Part shown: positions 47,276-57,652 of the stretch, one piece after another
How positions within the stretch are numbered: the stretch's first letter is position 1
Layout: the number at the start of each line of letters is the position of its first letter
From: an uncultured Bradyrhizobium sp.
Lineage (GTDB): Bacteria; Pseudomonadota; Alphaproteobacteria; Rhizobiales; Xanthobacteraceae
Assembly (NCBI RefSeq): GCF_947648125.1
Contig: NZ_CANSMR010000021.1
Span: forward strand, 1-64,000
Reading direction: 5' to 3'
DNA length: 64,000 nucleotides
Made by a program: the position numbers and the translations under genes
The notes under the pieces: generated by a model
The model's database searches: none
What the model was told of the DNA's origin: nothing
What the model saw: the letters and a program-made list of their open reading frames with translations, nothing else

Positions 47276-49348
<2,073 letters not shown>

Positions 49349-49413
49349 CGAAATCGAATCCTCTGACTTTGTGATCAATGATGCGTCTTGCCTTGCGGGC
49401 GCAACGTTCAATT

Positions 49414-50205
49414 CTAGGCTCGTCCGACAAAGCGCGGCGTGCGCTTTTCGAGGAACGCGGTGACGCCTTCGGCATAGTCCGCCGACCGGCCCGCGCGGCC
49501 CTGCATGTCGCGCTCGAGATCAAGTTGCGCATCGAGCGTGTTGGTCTCGGAGGCATCGAGCGCCTGCTTGATCAACGCAAGACCATCGGTCGGCTGCGTC
49601 GCGAGCGAGGCGACGAGGGCGTGGGCCTCCGTCATCAGGTCGGAGTCCTCGACCACTCTCCAGATCATGCCCCATGTCTCCGCCCGCTCCGCGGAGATCG
49701 GTTCGGCGAGCATGGTCAACGCACGAGCCCGCGCTGTGCCGACGAGCCGCGGCAGGAACCAGGTGCCACCGGAATCCGGGACGAGGCCGAGCTTCGCGAA
49801 GGCCTGAATGAACTTGGCCGATCGCGCGGCGATCACGATATCGCAGGCAAGGGCCACATTCGCCCCGGCGCCCGCGGCCACGCCGTTGACGGCGCACACG
49901 ACCGGCATCGGAATGCTGCGCAGCTTGCGCACCAGCGGGTTGTAGTATTTTTCGATCGGCACCGAGAGATCAGGCGTTTCGCCCGGCGTGAACACGCCGT
50001 CCGAAAGATCCTGCCCGGCACAGAATCCGCGTCCCGCTCCGGTCAGGATCAACGCGCGGCAGGATTTGTCCTGCTCGGCTGCAATCAGCGCGGCCATCAA
50101 TACGGCGTGCAGATCGGCGCTGAATGAATTCAGGCGGTCGGGCCTGTTGAGCGTCAGGACGCGATATCCGGCGCGGATATCGGTCAACACCAAATCGCTG
50201 ACCAT
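49414..50205 (-). CDS. paaG: Phenylacetate pathway enoyl-CoA isomerase (PaaG)
   Basis: A 263-residue crotonase-fold protein. Oxyanion-hole blocks are GRGFCAGQDLSDG near residue 59 and GVAAGAGANVALACDIVIA near 108. The catalytic Asp is in LGLVPDSGGTWFLPRLVG at residue 144, the pattern of PaaG-type isomerases rather than two-Glu hydratases. It should convert the ring 1,2-epoxide of phenylacetyl-CoA to oxepin-CoA, the substrate of the PaaZ encoded next. A candidate TetR operator lies 60 bp upstream. Confidence 0.92.
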   Translation of the reverse strand: MVSDLVLTDIRAGYRVLTLNRPDRLNSFSADLHAVLMAALIAAEQDKSCRALILTGAGRGFCAGQDLSDGVFTPGETPDLSVPIEKYYNPLVRKLRSIPMPVVCAVNGVAAGAGANVALACDIVIAARSAKFIQAFAKLGLVPDSGGTWFLPRLVGTARARALTMLAEPISAERAETWGMIWRVVEDSDLMTEAHALVASLATQPTDGLALIKQALDASETNTLDAQLDLERDMQGRAGRSADYAEGVTAFLEKRTPRFVGRA

Positions 50206-50592
50206 GATTACCTCCCGTTGCGGCTTCTGATGACCGAGGTCGCATGACCTGCGACCGGATTACTATTGACCGTCCGGTCAGTCAATTATAATTATCCGCG
50301 CTCCGATGCCGACGACGTCTTCGGGCTTATCGGAGCGAGGACCATTTTAGTCCCGCTCGCGAATTCGGGCGCAACAAACACAACAAGACCAGAGCAATTT
50401 CGCGCGCGCTGCACCAAGCGCGTATTTGCGAAGCTTATGCGCAACCCTTGACACTTGTCAGATCGAAGCATCGGCGGAACCCGCGAAAGGTTCACGTTTG
50501 CAGCTGCGCTGCATGGCGCCCATGCTGCGGTGTGCGCCGCCACAAATCAGCCGTATATGAGCGGCGACTTCCGCTGCAATGAGGGCGAGCCG
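50206..50592. other. Intergenic region between divergent paaG and AraC genes
   Basis: A gap of 387 bp with no supported gene; the AraC frame is open back to 50455, but its N-terminal part there does not resemble the family. It contains the paaG leader, the candidate TetR operator at 50265-50286, a small perfect palindrome GACCGAGGTC at 50232-50241, and an AT-rich stretch after the operator (TCAATTATAATTATCC) suitable for a promoter. Confidence 0.5.
50265..50286. promoter_or_regulatory. Candidate TetR/PaaR operator upstream of paaG
   Basis: TTGACCGTCCGGTCAGTCAA (50266-50285) is an imperfect palindrome, 16 of 20 positions symmetric, and is flanked by A and T. It contains GACC-N4-GGTC and matches the site before the TetR gene at 46477-46495. 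Position 60 bp before the paaG start fits repression of paaG-paaZ. Confidence 0.62.
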
Positions 50593-51573
50593 ATGACAAT
50601 GCAGTCGGGCGATATCACAGGGTTTCGATTCTCGACCGCGCATTTTGGCGAGCGCGATCGCTTGCCGATCTTTCGCGAGCAGATCGGGCGGATGATCGTC
50701 AAGCTCGATCCGGAGCCGCTCGACGACGGCGCGTTTCATGCCGAAGCGAATGTGCGCGAATTGTCCGGGCTCGGCATCGGATCCTGGGCGTGCAGCAATC
50801 TCAAGATCGCAAGACCGCGCGAATTGCTCGACGGCACCGACGACCTGGTGCTGACGATCATCACGAGCGGCAACACCCGTGCCTCGCAGCGCGGCCGCGA
50901 TATCGAGCTCGGCCCGGGCCAGGCCGTGCTGCAGTCGAGCGCGGAAGCCGGCAACATGGTGGTGCCGGTGTCGCCGAGCCGCTTCGTCGGTCTCCGGTTG
51001 CCGCGCAAGGCGCTGGCCTCGCTGGTCAACGATCCCGAAGACATGCTGATCCGCCCTCTGCCGGCGAACACGGAGGCGATGCGCCTGCTGGCGCTTTACA
51101 TCAGGGAGCTCGACGACAGTTACCAGCTTTCGACTCCCGAGTTGCGCGGCGCCGTCGTCAAGCATTTGATCGATCTCGGCGCGCTGATCATCGGCGCCAA
51201 CCGGGATGCGGCGGTTGCCGCGGAAGACGGCGGACTGGCGGCTGCCCGGCTCGCCGCGGTCAAGGCCGACATCAGCGACAATCTCAGCTATGGCGACCTC
51301 ACGCTGCCCGCGGTGGCCGCCCGGCTGAAGCTCACGCCGCGCCATATCCAGCGGCTGTTCGAGAGCGCGGGTTCGACATTCTCGGAATTCGTGCTCGGCC
51401 AGCGTCTGGCGCGCGCGCATCATCTGCTGACCGATCCGCGCCACAGCCGCAGCGCCATCGGCACGATTGCGTTCGAAGTCGGGTTCGGCGATCTGTCCTA
51501 CTTCAACCGCACCTTCCGCCGGCACTACGGCGTGACGCCGTCGGATATTCGCGCGGTGCCGCGGCGTTCCTGA
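50593..51573 (+). CDS. AraC-family transcriptional regulator
   Basis: The start at 50593 (MTMQSGDITGFRF) is preceded by GAGG and gives 326 residues; upstream in-frame codons add a segment unlike the family. The N-terminal AraC-binding-like domain (IELGPGQAVLQSSAEAGNMVVPVSPSRFVGLRLPRKAL) is followed by a C-terminal double helix-turn-helix: LTLPAVAARLKLTPRHIQRLFESAG and SRSAIGTIAFEVGFGDLSYFNRTFRRHYGVTPSDIR. It diverges from paaG and could control genes to its right; the target is not evident. The same domain architecture as the AraC at 34071-35030. Confidence 0.9.
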   Translation: MTMQSGDITGFRFSTAHFGERDRLPIFREQIGRMIVKLDPEPLDDGAFHAEANVRELSGLGIGSWACSNLKIARPRELLDGTDDLVLTIITSGNTRASQRGRDIELGPGQAVLQSSAEAGNMVVPVSPSRFVGLRLPRKALASLVNDPEDMLIRPLPANTEAMRLLALYIRELDDSYQLSTPELRGAVVKHLIDLGALIIGANRDAAVAAEDGGLAAARLAAVKADISDNLSYGDLTLPAVAARLKLTPRHIQRLFESAGSTFSEFVLGQRLARAHHLLTDPRHSRSAIGTIAFEVGFGDLSYFNRTFRRHYGVTPSDIRAVPRRS

Positions 51574-52110: not shown

Positions 52111-53124
52111 ATGCCTCCGATAGCCAAAGGGGCCTTTCTGATTCTGCTTGCCGTGTTGATGCCCTGGTGCGCGCGGGCGAATGACACGTCCGCCGCGCTC
52201 GAAACCGGGGGACTTCGCTTCAAGCAGGACCCCGATATCGTGATGCGTTCCGAGGATCTCTTCATCTCCGAGAAGCAGATCCGGATCGTCTACCGGTTCT
52301 TCAACACCTCGGCTGCCGACAAAACGATCATGATCGCGTTCCCGATGCCCGACATCGTCGGCAAGGAGGGCGACGAGAATATCGGGCTCCCGACCGACGA
52401 TCCCGAGAATATCTTTGATTTCCACGTCACCGTCGACGGCAGGGCGGCAGCGCCGCATCTCGAACAGACGGCGCTCGCGAACGACGTGGACCAGACGGCG
52501 CTGCTGCGGAAGCTCGGAATTCCGCTGATGCCGATCAGGGGGCCTGCGGGCGAGCTGCTCGACAAATTGCCGAAATCGAACTGGCCGCAGCTCGTCAAGC
52601 TTGGCATCGGCGCCATCGAGACCTACGGGTCGGGTGGCCCGATGCAGGATCATCTCGTGCCGACCTGGACGTTGCGCTCGGCCTATACCTGGACGCAGAC
52701 CTTCCCTGCGGGCCGGGAGATCACGTTCGAGCAGACCTACCGGCCGAGCGTTGGCGGCTCGGTGCAGACGATCATCGGCGCCGACAACTGGCGCAACAAC
52801 CCGGAAGCGCGAGAGTTTCTTGCGTCATATTGCATCGACGACGACCTGATCCGCACCATCGAGCGGGCGCGTGCGACGAAGCACGCTCCCTATCCGCCGT
52901 TCAGTGAACGGTCGATTGCCTATGTGCTCTCGACCGGCGCCAACTGGGCCGCGCCGATCGGCGACTTTCACCTCACCGTCGACAAGGGCGAGCCCAACAA
53001 TTTCGTCAGCTTCTGCGCTGAAGGCGTCAAGAAGACTGGACCGACGCGATTCGAGGTGCGGCACACCAACTTCACGCCGTCGCGAGATCTGAAGATCGTC
53101 ATCTTTGTTCCGAATCCGAATTAA
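52111..53124 (+). CDS. DUF4424-family exported protein
   Basis: 337 residues from ATG 52111, six bases after AAGGA; an ATG two codons earlier would abut that site. A signal peptide ends WCARA and is followed by NDTSAALETGGLRFKQDPDIVMRSEDLFISEKQIRIVYRFFN, the typical opening of DUF4424 proteins, which bear beta-rich periplasmic domains of unknown role. Other blocks are TIMIAFPMPDI near residue 73, FEQTYRPSVGGSV near 210 and a C-terminal FTPSRDLKIVIFVPNPN. Function unknown. Confidence 0.82.
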   Translation: MPPIAKGAFLILLAVLMPWCARANDTSAALETGGLRFKQDPDIVMRSEDLFISEKQIRIVYRFFNTSAADKTIMIAFPMPDIVGKEGDENIGLPTDDPENIFDFHVTVDGRAAAPHLEQTALANDVDQTALLRKLGIPLMPIRGPAGELLDKLPKSNWPQLVKLGIGAIETYGSGGPMQDHLVPTWTLRSAYTWTQTFPAGREITFEQTYRPSVGGSVQTIIGADNWRNNPEAREFLASYCIDDDLIRTIERARATKHAPYPPFSERSIAYVLSTGANWAAPIGDFHLTVDKGEPNNFVSFCAEGVKKTGPTRFEVRHTNFTPSRDLKIVIFVPNPN

Positions 53125-53153
53125 CTCCGGCAAGGATCATGCAATGATTGCGA

Positions 53154-53287
53154 ACATTGTTGTGTGATGTCGCATCCGTCCCAATCCTGGTCGCTTCCGT
53201 CCGAGCCTCGCATCGCTGAGTCGCCTAAAAGGCAGCCCCCTGTGATCGCCTGCGCGAGCGATCCACCGATAGCGATGCAGTGAGGCC
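53154..53287 (+). repeat. Duplicated intergenic element, copy A
   Basis: This 134-bp stretch before the acyl-CoA-dehydrogenase-like gene aligns without gaps over its first ~110 bp to copy B at 55111-55247. Conserved blocks are ACATTGTTG, ATGTCGCAT, GTCCGAGCCT, AAGGCAGCCCCC, GTGATCG and GCGATGCA. The end of the element carries the GAGG Shine-Dalgarno of the gene. A hairpin GATCGC (53244-53249)/GCGATC (53258-53263) is kept in copy B in a weaker form. A 38-codon ORF (53167-53283) runs through it and matches one in copy B, but nearly all shared codons are identical in sequence and most differences change the residue. That favours a DNA or RNA element over a protein. Confidence 0.7.
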
Positions 53288-53291
53288 ACCA

Positions 53292-54506
53292 ATGACAGAC
53301 ACCACCTCGTCGTTCGTCGATGCTGCCGCGGCGCTCGCGCCGCGGGTTCAGGCATCGGTGCTGGAGAGCGAGCAGTCGCGGCGGCTGCCTGTCCCGCTGG
53401 TTGAGGCGATGGCGCAGGCCGGGTTCTTTCGCCTCTGGATTCCGCGCGCCATCGGTGGCGAGGAGGCTGCCCCCATGACTCTCGTTCGGGTGGTCGAGGA
53501 GATCTCGCGCGCCGACGGTGCCGCCGGCTGGTGCATGGCCATCGGGGGCGCCTATGGCGTGTTCGGCGGCTATCTCGGGAAGGACGCCGCGCGCGACATC
53601 TATGGCAGCGATCCGCTGGTTCGAACGGCGGGCGCCTTGCGGCCGTTCGGGATCGCCAGGATCGTCGATGGTGGTTATCGCGTCACGGGCCGCTGGCCGC
53701 TCGGAAGCGGCTGCCAGCACTCCGGCTGGATGATCGGCAATTGCCGGATCTTCGACGGAGATCAGCCGCGGTTGCGCCCCGACGGCACCCCGGTGATGCG
53801 CTTCATGCTGTTTCCGACCGCGCAATGCGAGATTCTCGACACCTGGCACAGTATCGGGCTGCGCGGCACGGGCAGCCATGACTATGCGATCGCGGATGCC
53901 TTCGTGCCATCCACGCAGTCGCTCTCGTTCCGCGAACCGCCGGTGGAGCGGGGGCCGCTCTATGCGTTTCCGACCATTGCGCTGTTCGGGGCGGCGCTCG
54001 CCGCCGTGCCGCTCGGCATCGCCCGCCACGCGATCGACACTCTGGTCGAGCTTGTCGGACGAAAGATCGCAACGCGCTCGCGCAAGCTGCTCCGTGAAGA
54101 TGCGCTGATCCAAGCCGATCTCGGCCGCGCCGAGGCCTTGCTGGGTTCGGGACGGGCATTCCTTTACGGCAAGCTGGAAGAGGCGTGGCAGGCCGTCAGT
54201 GCCGGCAAGGTGCTCAGCGTTGCCGAGCGCGCCACGCTGTGGCTGGCATCGACCCATGCGGCGAACACGGCCAAGCAGGCGACCGAGCTGATGTTCGGTG
54301 CCGGCGGCTCGGCCGCGGTGGACGTGAGCTGCGGGCTCGAACGCTGCGTGCGAGACGTCCATGCTGCCGTCCAGCACCTCGCCTTGGCATCGGCCAACTA
54401 TCAGATGGCCGGTGAGGCGTATCTCGGCGCGGATATGCGGTCGACGCCCTTGCTCTTCTCCGATGACCGCGACGAAGCACGCCCTCTGTCCGCCAACCCG
54501 AACTAG
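53292..54506 (+). CDS. Acyl-CoA-dehydrogenase-like flavoprotein (possible group D monooxygenase)
   Basis: 404 residues from ATG 53292 (MTDTTSSFVDAAAALA), with GAGG upstream. The fold is that of acyl-CoA dehydrogenases: an N-terminal helical part (LVEAMAQAGFFRLWIPRAIGGEEA), the middle beta domain (GYRVTGRWPLGSGCQHSGWMIGNC, then DTWHSIGLRGTGSHDYAIADAFVP) and a C-terminal helical bundle. There is no obvious catalytic Glu for CoA-ester oxidation, and SGWMIGNC/GLRGTGSHD resembles reduced-flavin-dependent hydroxylases such as HsaA or HpaB relatives. No flavin reductase is adjacent. It is preceded by element copy A. Confidence 0.78.
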   Translation: MTDTTSSFVDAAAALAPRVQASVLESEQSRRLPVPLVEAMAQAGFFRLWIPRAIGGEEAAPMTLVRVVEEISRADGAAGWCMAIGGAYGVFGGYLGKDAARDIYGSDPLVRTAGALRPFGIARIVDGGYRVTGRWPLGSGCQHSGWMIGNCRIFDGDQPRLRPDGTPVMRFMLFPTAQCEILDTWHSIGLRGTGSHDYAIADAFVPSTQSLSFREPPVERGPLYAFPTIALFGAALAAVPLGIARHAIDTLVELVGRKIATRSRKLLREDALIQADLGRAEALLGSGRAFLYGKLEEAWQAVSAGKVLSVAERATLWLASTHAANTAKQATELMFGAGGSAAVDVSCGLERCVRDVHAAVQHLALASANYQMAGEAYLGADMRSTPLLFSDDRDEARPLSANPN

Positions 54507-54524
54507 CGCCGCCGCATTCCAACC

Positions 54525-55037
54525 ATGATGAACATGCCCAGGATGGTCCTGAAGCAGGCCCCGCGCCTGCCTCTCAGCATTGGCGGGTTGGCCGCCCCGG
54601 CATCGGCACAGTCCACCGATCCGCATCATCCGACGGTGCTCGGCGCCGGCGTCAATCGCGCCAACATCACCAATGATATCAGCGGTCATTACTACAGCTT
54701 CATGGCGGGGCCGGGCCATGTCGATGTCGAGCTCGCCTTCAAGGAGATGGGCGTGTTCGGCCGTCCGCTGCCGCAGCATCTCAACTTCGACTTCTGGAAT
54801 GCGGCCGGCGTTCGGCTGTCCCACATCGAAGTCCTGTGCCAGGGCAGCGTCGCCCGCCGGCACACCGATGCCGATTTGCCGGCGCGACAAAGGATCAATC
54901 TGGCGGTCTCGACGCAATGGGGCGCGATCAAGGTCGGCGGCTACTACGAGATCGAGCTGAAAGGCGCTGTCGAGGCGGCAGCACCGGTCGGAGCCGACGT
55001 CAAGCCGGCAGCGTCCGAGCCGCTGGTGCGGCCGTGA
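54525..55037 (+). CDS. Exported hypothetical protein
   Basis: 170 residues, 18 bp after the flavoprotein gene and probably cotranscribed. A short hydrophobic stretch (PLSIGGLAAPASAQ) looks like a weak signal peptide. The mature part (ANITNDISGHYYSFMAGPGHVDVELAFKEMG, then LNFDFWNAAGVRLSHIEVL) has the alternating pattern of a small beta-sandwich, loosely like pre-peptidase C-terminal domains of secreted proteins. No enzyme motif is visible. The exact start is uncertain: three ATGs lie within seven codons and none has a good Shine-Dalgarno sequence. Function unknown. Confidence 0.6.
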   Translation: MMNMPRMVLKQAPRLPLSIGGLAAPASAQSTDPHHPTVLGAGVNRANITNDISGHYYSFMAGPGHVDVELAFKEMGVFGRPLPQHLNFDFWNAAGVRLSHIEVLCQGSVARRHTDADLPARQRINLAVSTQWGAIKVGGYYEIELKGAVEAAAPVGADVKPAASEPLVRP

Positions 55038-55110
55038 TCGAACCATCACCAGCTATGTGCTGTCGCGCACACAGGACGATTCCAGGCGCCAATGCACGGC
55101 AACGTGTTTC

Positions 55111-55247
55111 ACATTGTTGCCCAATGTCGCATATGTCCAATTCCCCGTCGCCTCAGTCCGAGCCTGCTGCTCATCGCGCGCATACAAGGCAGCCCCCGGT
55201 GATCGTTGCGGCCGGCGATACCAGTCGATTGCGATGCATTGAGGCGA
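55111..55247 (+). repeat. Duplicated intergenic element, copy B
   Basis: The partner of copy A, upstream of the LivJ-like binding-protein gene. It begins with a perfect palindrome ACATTG-N5-CAATGT (55111-55127), of which only one half is intact in copy A. CAATG also occurs at 55090, so half-sites are clustered. The block AAGGCAGCCCCC (55186-55197) and the hairpin ATCGT/GCGAT (55202-55206 with 55215-55219, using one G-T pair) match copy A. A 42-codon ORF at 55124-55252 parallels that in copy A and reads RQPPVI in its middle. There is no Shine-Dalgarno sequence before either ORF. Confidence 0.7.
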
Positions 55248-55271
55248 CTTGAGACCATCAAGGAGAATATG

Positions 55272-56393
55272 ATGAAGTTTGCACTTCGAGGATACTTTCT
55301 TGCGCTTGGCGCGAGCCTGGCATTGTCCGGCGCGGCCATGGCCCAGGATATCAGTGTTGCCGTGGTTGGGCCGATGACCGGCTCGGAGGCGAGCTTCGGC
55401 CAGCAGTTCAAGAACGGTGCTGACCTCGCCATCGCCGACATCAATGCGGCGGGCGGCGTGCTCGGCAAGAAGCTGAAGCTGGAAGTCGGCGACGACGCCT
55501 GCGATCCGAAGCAGGCGGTGTCGGTTGCCGAGAAGATGGCGGGCGCGAAGATTCCGTTCGTGGTCGGGCACTTCTGCTCGTCGACCTCGATTCCCGCCTC
55601 GGACGCCTATGCCGAAGGTAATGTGCTGCAGATCACGCCGGGTTCGACCAACCCGCTCTTCACCGAGCGCGGATTGTGGAACACGTTCCGCGTCTGCGGC
55701 CGGGATGACCAGCAGGGCATGGTCGCGGCCGCCTACATCATCAAGAACTACAAGACCAAGAACGTCGCGATCATCCACGACAAGACGACCTACGGCAAAG
55801 GCCTTGCCGACGAAACGAAGAACGCCATCAACGCGGCGGGCGTGAAGGAAAAGCTCTATGAAGCCTACACCAAGGGCGACAAGGATTTTGCCGCGCTGGT
55901 GTCCCGCTTCAAGAAGGAATCGATCGATTTCGTCTATGTCGGTGGCTACTACGCCGAGGCGGCATTGATCCTGCGCCAGATGCGCGAGCAGGGCGTCAAT
56001 GCCGTGCTGATGGGCGGCGACGCCTTGGTCGACAAGCAGTTCGCCGCGATCGCAGGTCCGCTTGCCGAGGGCTCGCTGTTCACCTTCTCGCCCGATCCGC
56101 GCAAGAAGGTGACCGCAGCCGCGACCTTGAAGAAGTTCAAGGACAAGGGCATCGATCCGGACGGCTACACGCTCTACAGCTATGCCGCGTTCCAGATCTG
56201 GAGCCAGGCCGTTACCCGCGCCCAGACCACGGACGCCAGGAAGATCGCAGCGACCATCAAGAGTGGAAACTGGGATACCGTGCTCGGCAACATCAGCTAC
56301 ACGCCGAAGGGTGACATCACCCTGATCGACTACGTCGTGTACCGCCGCGACAAGGACGGCAACTACGCCGAGCTGCCGGCCGCCGGTCAATGA
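55272..56393 (+). CDS. Branched-chain amino acid ABC transporter binding protein (LivJ-like)
   Basis: 373 residues; AGGAG lies six bases before ATG 55272 and three before the adjacent ATG 55269. A signal peptide ends LSGAAMAQ. The mature protein opens DISVAVVGPMTGSEASFGQQFKNGADLAIADINAAGGVLGKKLKLEVGDD, and has VVGHFCSSTSIPASDAYAEGNVLQITPGSTNP near residue 95 and AIIHDKTTYGKGLADETKNA near 150, all classic LivJ/LivK features. No permease or ATPase genes are adjacent, so it must borrow a Liv transporter encoded elsewhere, perhaps livGFHM at 41931-45419. It is preceded by element copy B and followed by two strong stem-loops. Confidence 0.93.
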   Translation: MKFALRGYFLALGASLALSGAAMAQDISVAVVGPMTGSEASFGQQFKNGADLAIADINAAGGVLGKKLKLEVGDDACDPKQAVSVAEKMAGAKIPFVVGHFCSSTSIPASDAYAEGNVLQITPGSTNPLFTERGLWNTFRVCGRDDQQGMVAAAYIIKNYKTKNVAIIHDKTTYGKGLADETKNAINAAGVKEKLYEAYTKGDKDFAALVSRFKKESIDFVYVGGYYAEAALILRQMREQGVNAVLMGGDALVDKQFAAIAGPLAEGSLFTFSPDPRKKVTAAATLKKFKDKGIDPDGYTLYSYAAFQIWSQAVTRAQTTDARKIAATIKSGNWDTVLGNISYTPKGDITLIDYVVYRRDKDGNYAELPAAGQ

Positions 56394-56399
56394 TCGCTG

Positions 56400-56438
56400 G
56401 CCGCGACATCGGCGCTCCTCCCTGATCGATGTCGCGGC
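56400..56438 (+). terminator. Stem-loop after the LivJ-like gene
   Basis: GCCGCGACATCG (56400-56411) and CGATGTCGCGGC (56427-56438) form a perfect 12-bp stem with a 15-base loop, beginning six bases after the stop codon. It lacks a T-tract but is the natural end or stabiliser of this monocistronic message. Confidence 0.65.
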
Positions 56439-56448
56439 TGTGCCGGCT

Positions 56449-56500
56449 CACAGCGCCAACGGACCAACCCTCTGCCAGCCCCGGAGGTGTTGGCGCTGTG
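56449..56500 (+). terminator. Second stem-loop after the LivJ-like gene
   Basis: CACAGCGCCAAC (56449-56460) and GTTGGCGCTGTG (56489-56500) are a perfect 12-bp inverted repeat around a 28-base spacer, ten bases after the first hairpin. The rest of the 215-bp gap (56394-56608) holds only the leader of the membrane-protein gene. The tandem arrangement suggests strong transcript-end formation, or a regulatory site for the downstream gene. Confidence 0.5.
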
Positions 56501-56608
56501 ACGCCTGGTCCGCAGGAGTCACCGCGTCGAGCTGATCCCGCAACCACGATACCGTTGAATCCGATTTCGATCGATCACGGCAACCCAAGAGCCAACGAGA
56601 GGCAACAC

Positions 56609-57652
56609 GTGTCTGACATAAGCCTGAGCAATGGCAGCGGCCGCGACGGTTCAGCCGATTGGCACGCCGCGGGACAATCCCAAGGACCGTCTCAAGGACC
56701 GTCCCACTCCTACCCGCTGCTGGTGCGCGATCACGGTCTTGGCACCGCGCTGAAGCTGTTGCTCGAGACCCTGCCTTATGCGCTGGCGCGTTGGGGCGTG
56801 CTGCTGGCCTTTGCCGCGGCGTGCGCCATCTGGGCCGTGGTCGCGGTCGGCGGCGCGGTGTGGCTCGGCACCCATGTCGCCAGCGTGTTCGGCTATTGCT
56901 GGCTGCTTGGCATCCTGCTGCTCGGCGGATGGATCTGGGGTGCCATCCTGCGCTACACGCTTCATATCATCGCCTGCGGCCATGTCGCCGTGCTGACCGA
57001 GCTGATCACCCGCGGCAGCATCGGCAACGGCACCGAAGGGCAGTTCGCCTACGGCCGCCGGATGGTGATGGACCGGTTCGGCGAGGTCGCGGTCCTGTTC
57101 GGGCTTGGCGCGCTGATCCGCGCCGTGCTGCGCGCGTTTCACAATGCGCTCGATACGCTTGGCGATTGGCTGCCGGCGCCCGGCATGAAGGCGATCGTCG
57201 GTCTGCTCAACACCATCCTGTCGGCCGCGACGCGCTATCTGGACAAGGTGGTGCTGTCCTACGATCTGGCGCGCGGCGGCGACGATCCGAGGCGCAACAT
57301 CCAGGACGGACTGGTCTACTATTGCCAGAACGCCAAGCCGATCCTGACGACGTCGGTCTGGATGGTCATCGTCGAGCGGATCCTGAGCATCCTGCTTTGC
57401 CTGCTGCTGCTGGTCCCCGCCGGCGTGGCGACGGTCTGGTTGCCGGAGGCTGTCAGGGAGTATGGCGCCATGGTCACCGTCGTCATCGCCGCCCTGCTGG
57501 CGGTGACGGTGCGCGCGGCATTCATCCAGCCGCTATTCCTGATCTGCATGATGATCCGCTTTCACGCGCTGATCGAGAACCAGCCGATCAATTCGACCTG
57601 GGTCGGTTATCTCGACGGCCTCACAGACAAGTTCCGGCAGATCGAACGCTGA
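56609..57652 (+). CDS. Hypothetical polytopic membrane protein
   Basis: 347 residues from GTG 56609 (VSDISLSNGSGRD), six bases after GAGAGG; the frame is open upstream to 56429 but only through the stem-loop region. A soluble Ser/Gly/Gln-rich N-terminus of ~40 residues is followed by about six hydrophobic segments (including WGVLLAFAAACAIWAVVAVGG, GYCWLLGILLLGGWIWGAIL, RILSILLCLLLLVPAGVATVW and VTVVIAALLAVTVRAAFIQPL). The segment SAATRYLDKVVLSYDLARGGDDPRRNIQDGLVYYCQNAKPIL lies between membrane spans. I do not recognise the family; a distant likeness to choline-transporter-like proteins is too weak to use. Confidence 0.75.
   Translation: MSDISLSNGSGRDGSADWHAAGQSQGPSQGPSHSYPLLVRDHGLGTALKLLLETLPYALARWGVLLAFAAACAIWAVVAVGGAVWLGTHVASVFGYCWLLGILLLGGWIWGAILRYTLHIIACGHVAVLTELITRGSIGNGTEGQFAYGRRMVMDRFGEVAVLFGLGALIRAVLRAFHNALDTLGDWLPAPGMKAIVGLLNTILSAATRYLDKVVLSYDLARGGDDPRRNIQDGLVYYCQNAKPILTTSVWMVIVERILSILLCLLLLVPAGVATVWLPEAVREYGAMVTVVIAALLAVTVRAAFIQPLFLICMMIRFHALIENQPINSTWVGYLDGLTDKFRQIER

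Follow-up and report, generated by a model that had tools for sequence, protein, structure and literature searches.

Stretches A and B of the window (the whole 64,000-nucleotide stretch of an uncultured Bradyrhizobium sp. contig analysed here) very probably represent one activator-dependent promoter of the AraC/XylS type, present twice, with the regulator encoded at 50455-51573. A shared promoter/operator had been proposed for the two in the original prediction; our analysis supports this proposal and names the AraC-family gene, located 1.6 kb upstream, as the likely regulator (Table 1). The evidence for this reading comprises the tandem repeat of the element, the fixed spacing of its -10-like box, the presence of an AraC gene in the cluster, the co-occurrence of gene and element, the AraC fragments found in some genomes, the operators carried by some AraC paralogues, and agreement in layout with both XylS/Pm and the ARG box. 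AraC/XylS-type control is of an ordinary, known kind, and no new mechanism is proposed. The reading would give an AraC regulator target genes, along with a predicted site of binding and a promoter that can be tested, in a small regulon that is built of repeated promoter copies and in which natural losses of the regulator serve as experiments. Among the top-ranked matches in the open-licence literature, we found no paper describing this Bradyrhizobium element.

Table 1. Element copies A and B, their predicted promoter features and the associated genes in the window
Feature	Position	Strand	Basis
AraC/XylS-family regulator gene, proposed cognate regulator (start codon uncertain)	50455..51573	+	Pfam; co-occurrence with element
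Element copy A, whole conserved stretch	53154..53286	+	nhmmer profile, E 3.6e-33
Copy A distal operator half-site, TGTCGCATCCGTCCCA	53168..53183	+	sequence; direct-repeat scan
Copy A operator, proximal half-site (21 bp 3' of the distal one)	53189..53204	+	direct-repeat scan
Copy A -35-like GAGCCT, where the proximal half-site ends	53203..53208	+	inferred from 17-bp spacer to -10
Copy A -10-like TAAAAG	53226..53231	+	position; 27-bp distance rule
Acyl-CoA-dehydrogenase-fold flavoprotein gene behind A	53292..54506	+	ORF; NCBIfam
Element copy B, whole conserved stretch	55108..55245	+	nhmmer profile, E 3.6e-37
Copy B distal operator half-site, TGTCGCATATGTCCAA	55125..55140	+	sequence; direct-repeat scan
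Copy B operator, proximal half-site (21 bp 3' of the distal one)	55146..55161	+	direct-repeat scan
Copy B -35-like GAGCCT	55160..55165	+	inferred from 17-bp spacer
Copy B -10-like TACAAG	55183..55188	+	position; 27-bp distance rule
LivJ-like periplasmic binding protein gene behind B	55269..56393	+	PF13458

Copies A and B and the genes around them

With positions 53100-53300 as a blastn query for A, copies A and B align at 75% identity (E 9.4e-16), and they are the sole matches to A at E≤0.001 in the 8.57 Mb of their own genome. Their local alignment score is 103; the maximum for A against approximately 485 random stretches of the window is 25. The claimed alignment over about 135 bp was reproduced with the same conserved blocks, and the claimed nearness to gene starts also held: A lies just 5' of the flavoprotein ATG (53292) and B just 5' of the LivJ-like ATG (55269). 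The CATTG-N5-CAATG palindrome that had been described upstream is indeed perfect in copy B, but of the 40 aligned copies just 3 have it, each of them before LivJ, and it was rejected as a general feature of the element. In most of the genomes compared, copy A is closer to its counterparts in other species than to the copy B of its own genome, and the converse holds for B; judged by this likeness, the A/B duplication probably predates these species.

The best NCBIfam match of the flavoprotein is the HsaA monooxygenase (186.9 bits, below the cut-off of 450), and the best PDB match of the LivJ-like protein is 3ip5 (E 1.4e-111). The genes behind the copies would be compatible with one compound being taken up and oxidised. 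As to the inducer, our guess is an aromatic or amino-acid-like compound, aromatics being hinted at by the monooxygenase-like product and the PaaG/PaaZ-like genes nearby, and inducer screening could seek the substrate of the LivJ-type binding protein and the flavin monooxygenase-like enzyme. Open frames 54525-55037 and 56429-57652, each of which follows one of the two putatively element-driven genes, have no Pfam or NCBIfam match. On the minus strand, divergent from the AraC gene, the window contains adjoining PaaZ- and PaaG-like genes (47276-50205), matching TIGR02278 at 974 bits (cut-off 563) and TIGR02280 at 407 bits (cut-off 345), respectively.

Architecture of the proposed operator and promoter

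The core of the element consists of two tandem TGTCGC-N8-AA-like half-sites, 21 bp apart, followed by a -10-like TA(A/C)A. This arrangement, with tandem direct repeats approximately 21 bp apart beside a promoter, is that of an AraC/XylS operator. An iterated profile found 39 copies at E≤1e-4 and 40 at E≤1e-3 in a set made up of the window plus 18 loci taken from genomes with blast matches. All of these 40 but one (that of genome G003) contain the tandem repeat, defined as at least 17 of 22 positions matching GTCGCATNNGTCC twice at a period of 21-22 bp, and the repeat-bearing copies occur on both strands, 5' of unrelated genes. A scan for the repeat over 39 sequences, some from overlapping loci, gave 52 matches versus 3 on the reversed sequence.

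The spacing to the -10-like box is equally regular: counted from the first base of the second GTCC, TA(A/C/G)(A/G)(A/G) starts at 27 bp in 59 of 68 distinct segments, and one more segment has it at 28 bp. Eight segments fail this pattern, six having TAAGC/TAAAC at 27-28 bp, one having TATGA and one being a shifted false dimer. In a conservation profile of 33 aligned copies (of the 40, 7 were dropped as duplicates, divergent or degraded), the best-kept columns are those of the two half-sites, GTCGC-N-T-NN-GTCC, and of a TAAAAGG box. Another conserved box, CAA ... T-N2-T-N-G, is located 5' of the operator (53142-53165 and 55100-55120 in the window); it might be an additional contact for AraC, or else an UP element.

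The original prediction also included a leader RNA, which as a riboswitch or attenuator would be common to both genes. In A and B, sequence blocks remain conserved beyond the -10 (GTGATCG, GCGATGCA and TGAGGC), short hairpins can be drawn in both, and four copies that precede a different type of gene have slightly more stable folds than their shuffled versions (z -1.3 to -1.9). We nevertheless regard a leader RNA as hardly credible. When the 46 nt from the -10 box onward were compared with dinucleotide shuffles, the mean z over 32 distinct copies was -0.03 (0.43 for A and 0.73 for B), the minimum free energy folds differed, and Rfam gave no match at gathering score. The predicted 3' hairpin, which in copy A pairs GATCGC (53244-53249) with GCGATC (53258-53263) by eye, is not a fold common to the copies. 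Moreover, copy types C and D retain the operator and a TAA box in the absence of the 3' blocks, and it is in the half-sites and the -10 box that conservation is strongest, which further weakens the case for a leader.

Distribution of the element and its likely regulator in the genus

The original prediction would have been refuted by a lack of further copies in related genomes, and it survived this test: such copies are present at 1 to 5 per fetched locus and precede different genes. According to gene maps of the relatives' loci made with a simple ORF picker, the genes behind the copies, on either strand, encode LivJ, the flavoprotein, an unknown 188-aa product, a methyltransferase and a small product whose COX1 match is below cut-off, and the set varies among genomes. 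All profile copies lie within one gene neighbourhood, save one each in loci L059 and L061, which are found approximately 0.8 kb before an AI-2E-type transporter gene. A copy stands before LivJ in 28 of 28 loci and before the flavoprotein gene in all 17 loci having that gene. The exception is genome G159, in which the LivJ (69% identity) and flavoprotein (76%) genes have no element before them; there, the dimers lie beside AraC genes, one (21 bp) approximately 0.1 kb downstream of the AraC orthologue and the other (22 bp) separating a divergent pair of AraC genes.

The homology between A and B extends over some 135 bp and continues downstream of the promoter, as it would in a non-functional relic of a segmental duplication or in a mobile repeat. 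Such an origin is very unlikely: conservation is maximal in the half-sites and -10 box, the copies keep their places before LivJ and the flavoprotein gene (G159 excepted), and a mobile or genome-wide repeat was rejected because the window's own genome has two copies only.

The product of 50455-51573 matches PF14525 AraC_binding_2 at 66.9 bits (cut-off 27) and PF12833 HTH_18 at 74.1 bits (cut-off 33.6), which identifies it as a helix-turn-helix regulator. Its best NCBIfam matches are RhrA (1.8e-34; 119.4 bits against a cut-off of 500) and FeaR (2.2e-29; 102.9 bits against a cut-off of 199), and with scores so far below both curated cut-offs, assignment to either was rejected. In a protein search, the best 14 of 65 loci have 92-98% identity and are all from Bradyrhizobium.

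This gene and the element occur together. By blastn against 146 genomes of the genus, A was found in 15 and B in 17, including G023 over 29 bp only; an AraC orthologue of at least 75% identity is present in 13 of the 146, and all 13 have the element. Among 265 genomes of the genus, B was detected in 29 (blastn, E≤1e-6) and an AraC orthologue in 25 (E≤1e-150). Of these 25 genomes, 24 have the element by blastn and the remaining one, G159, has it by the profile (best E 1.5e-11). Fisher's test on the blast table of 265 genomes gives p 3.7e-28, a statistic that ignores descent, and the co-occurrence is partly a reflection of the common descent of one cluster.

In a search for sites allowing at most one mismatch in the 265 genomes, 88 matches were obtained versus approximately 36 for the reversed pattern; lone one-mismatch sites are thus unreliable. 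When the 88 were examined, 62 had an AraC gene of the window's type, or a fragment of one, no more than 5 kb away, and the remaining 26 comprised 19 of a third class (see below), 1 in G070, 5 apparent chance matches and 1 at 6 kb. The one-mismatch sites in G007, G061, G103, G214 and G219 were dismissed as chance, with no such AraC in the 10-12 kb fetched. A family-wide scan of 248 evenly drawn genomes, 17 of them of the genus, gave a match in 7, own genome included. Sites outside the genus were rejected: each of the other matches carries one mismatch, and the reversed-pattern control in the same table gave more matches than these.

Regulator losses, AraC paralogues and comparable systems

Five of the 30 genomes with the element are without an intact AraC gene: G010, G070 and G167 have fragments of 47-72 aa, G179 has broken pieces and G003 has no remnant. 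The exact 21-bp pattern is present before LivJ in 22 of 25 AraC-bearing genomes versus 1 of the 5 AraC-less ones. The AraC-bearing exceptions are G051 and G091, with a diverged 22-bp form, and G159, with none. The AraC-less group comprises G010 and G167, each with a mismatch, G179, whose period is 20 bp, G003, which has no dimer, and G070, whose operator is intact despite its AraC gene being a fragment. These counts, which ignore descent, suggest that the operator decays after AraC is lost.

Operators are also found beside some AraC paralogues. Six of 54 distinct AraC upstream regions reach an operator score of at least 17, a score reached by 2 of 1500 reversed control stretches. By identity to the local AraC, these are 6 of 22 regions in the 45-75% class (the six paralogues themselves at 45-53%), 0 of 20 below 45% and 0 of 13 orthologues. 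The other 16 of the 22 have no operator at this threshold, nine of them at 51-54% identity and one at 69%. The 13 orthologue upstream regions (approximately 75% identity or more) score 14 or less and so give no sign of autoregulation. In all six paralogues the operator is directed away from AraC. Five of the loci are orthologous to one another, being of one DUF3574 type, and hence not independent; the sixth is L122. In each of the five (L115, L118, L123, L125 and L131), the divergent operator beside the AraC paralogue faces either a DUF3574 gene, as matched in L118 and L123, or, at the corresponding position in L115, L125 and L131, a 141-aa gene. They may perhaps represent a second regulon type. 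A divergent operator also adjoins a second AraC gene (58-59% identity) or fragment inside the same cluster in L064 (12780-13130), L065 (13467-13820), L192, L196 and L197.

The site layout can be compared with two systems. XylS, of the Pseudomonas putida TOL plasmid, acts at Pm on two 15-bp direct repeats, each with a box A (TGCA), 6 bp and a box B (GGTA) (PMC5481539). The element similarly has paired direct repeats at a promoter, with TGTC-N6-GTCC half-sites 21 bp apart that touch the -35; unlike Pm, it lacks the TGCA/GGTA boxes and occurs as several copies in one cluster, and the likeness is one of layout. The ARG box of Pseudomonas ArgR is given as a tandem TGTCGCN6GNAA with a 5-bp gap and a less conserved second repeat (PMC10963909), or alternatively as TGTCGCN8AAN5 (PMC4997734). 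The first half-site of copy B (B1, TGTCGCATATGTCCAA) can be fitted to both layouts, and it matches the ARG box as stated there in all but one base: the first six bases, AA at positions 15-16 and the 21-bp period are shared, whereas position 13 is C here and G there. Half-site A1 differs in ending in CA, and the second half-sites begin with CGTCGC/GGTCGC. The regulator beside the element has an AraC_binding_2 domain, and the likeness to the ARG box is likewise one of sites.

In the mechanism that we infer, which extends to AraC binding, activation rather than repression, an effector and the start points, the AraC protein (50455-51573) would bind the two tandem 16-bp half-sites on one face of the helix, as their 21-bp distance implies. 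The proximal half-site would touch the -35 position, and bound AraC, given an effector, would recruit RNA polymerase to the weak -10 (TAAAAG/TACAAG). One regulator could in this way switch on separate transcription units, namely the flavoprotein and binding-protein genes here and others in relatives. A broader reading, possible but rather doubtful, is that Bradyrhizobium AraC paralogues spread their control by copying a promoter cassette of approximately 75-140 bp, which decays upon loss of the regulator. Its targets would be the flavoprotein, the binding protein, the methyltransferase, a small membrane protein and perhaps a transporter. If true, the growth and death of a regulon by duplication of whole promoters could be traced stepwise across species.

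Pseudomonas ArgR is an AraC-family regulator of the DJ-1/PfpI type. The operator could be real and yet be bound by some other AraC/XylS protein, such as one of this type reading the ARG-box-like half-site; we consider this unlikely. The own genome has 61 HTH_18 matches from which such a protein might come, and sites of a third class (such as TGTCGCGTCAGTCCAAACGCGTGTCGCAATAGTCC), fetched in 18 other genomes, lie 0.7-3.2 kb from an orthologue of a DJ-1/PfpI-type AraC gene in 14 of them (the domain was established in L175, and the others are assigned by orthology). In addition, copy B persists in the five genomes without an intact local AraC, three of which have the DJ-1/PfpI gene. That gene is still associated with the element (Fisher 1.1e-14) but tracks it less well than the local AraC does: both are present in 18 genomes, the element only in 11 and the gene only in 8 (own genome being counted as element-only at the cut-off of E 1e-110), compared with 24, 5 and 1 for the local AraC by blastn. 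The operators that some paralogues of the local AraC bear beside themselves also favour the local AraC as the regulator. The third class is represented in the own genome too, by a third tandem site, with one mismatch, located on contig 37 5' of a VWA-domain gene (L113:1632-1665).
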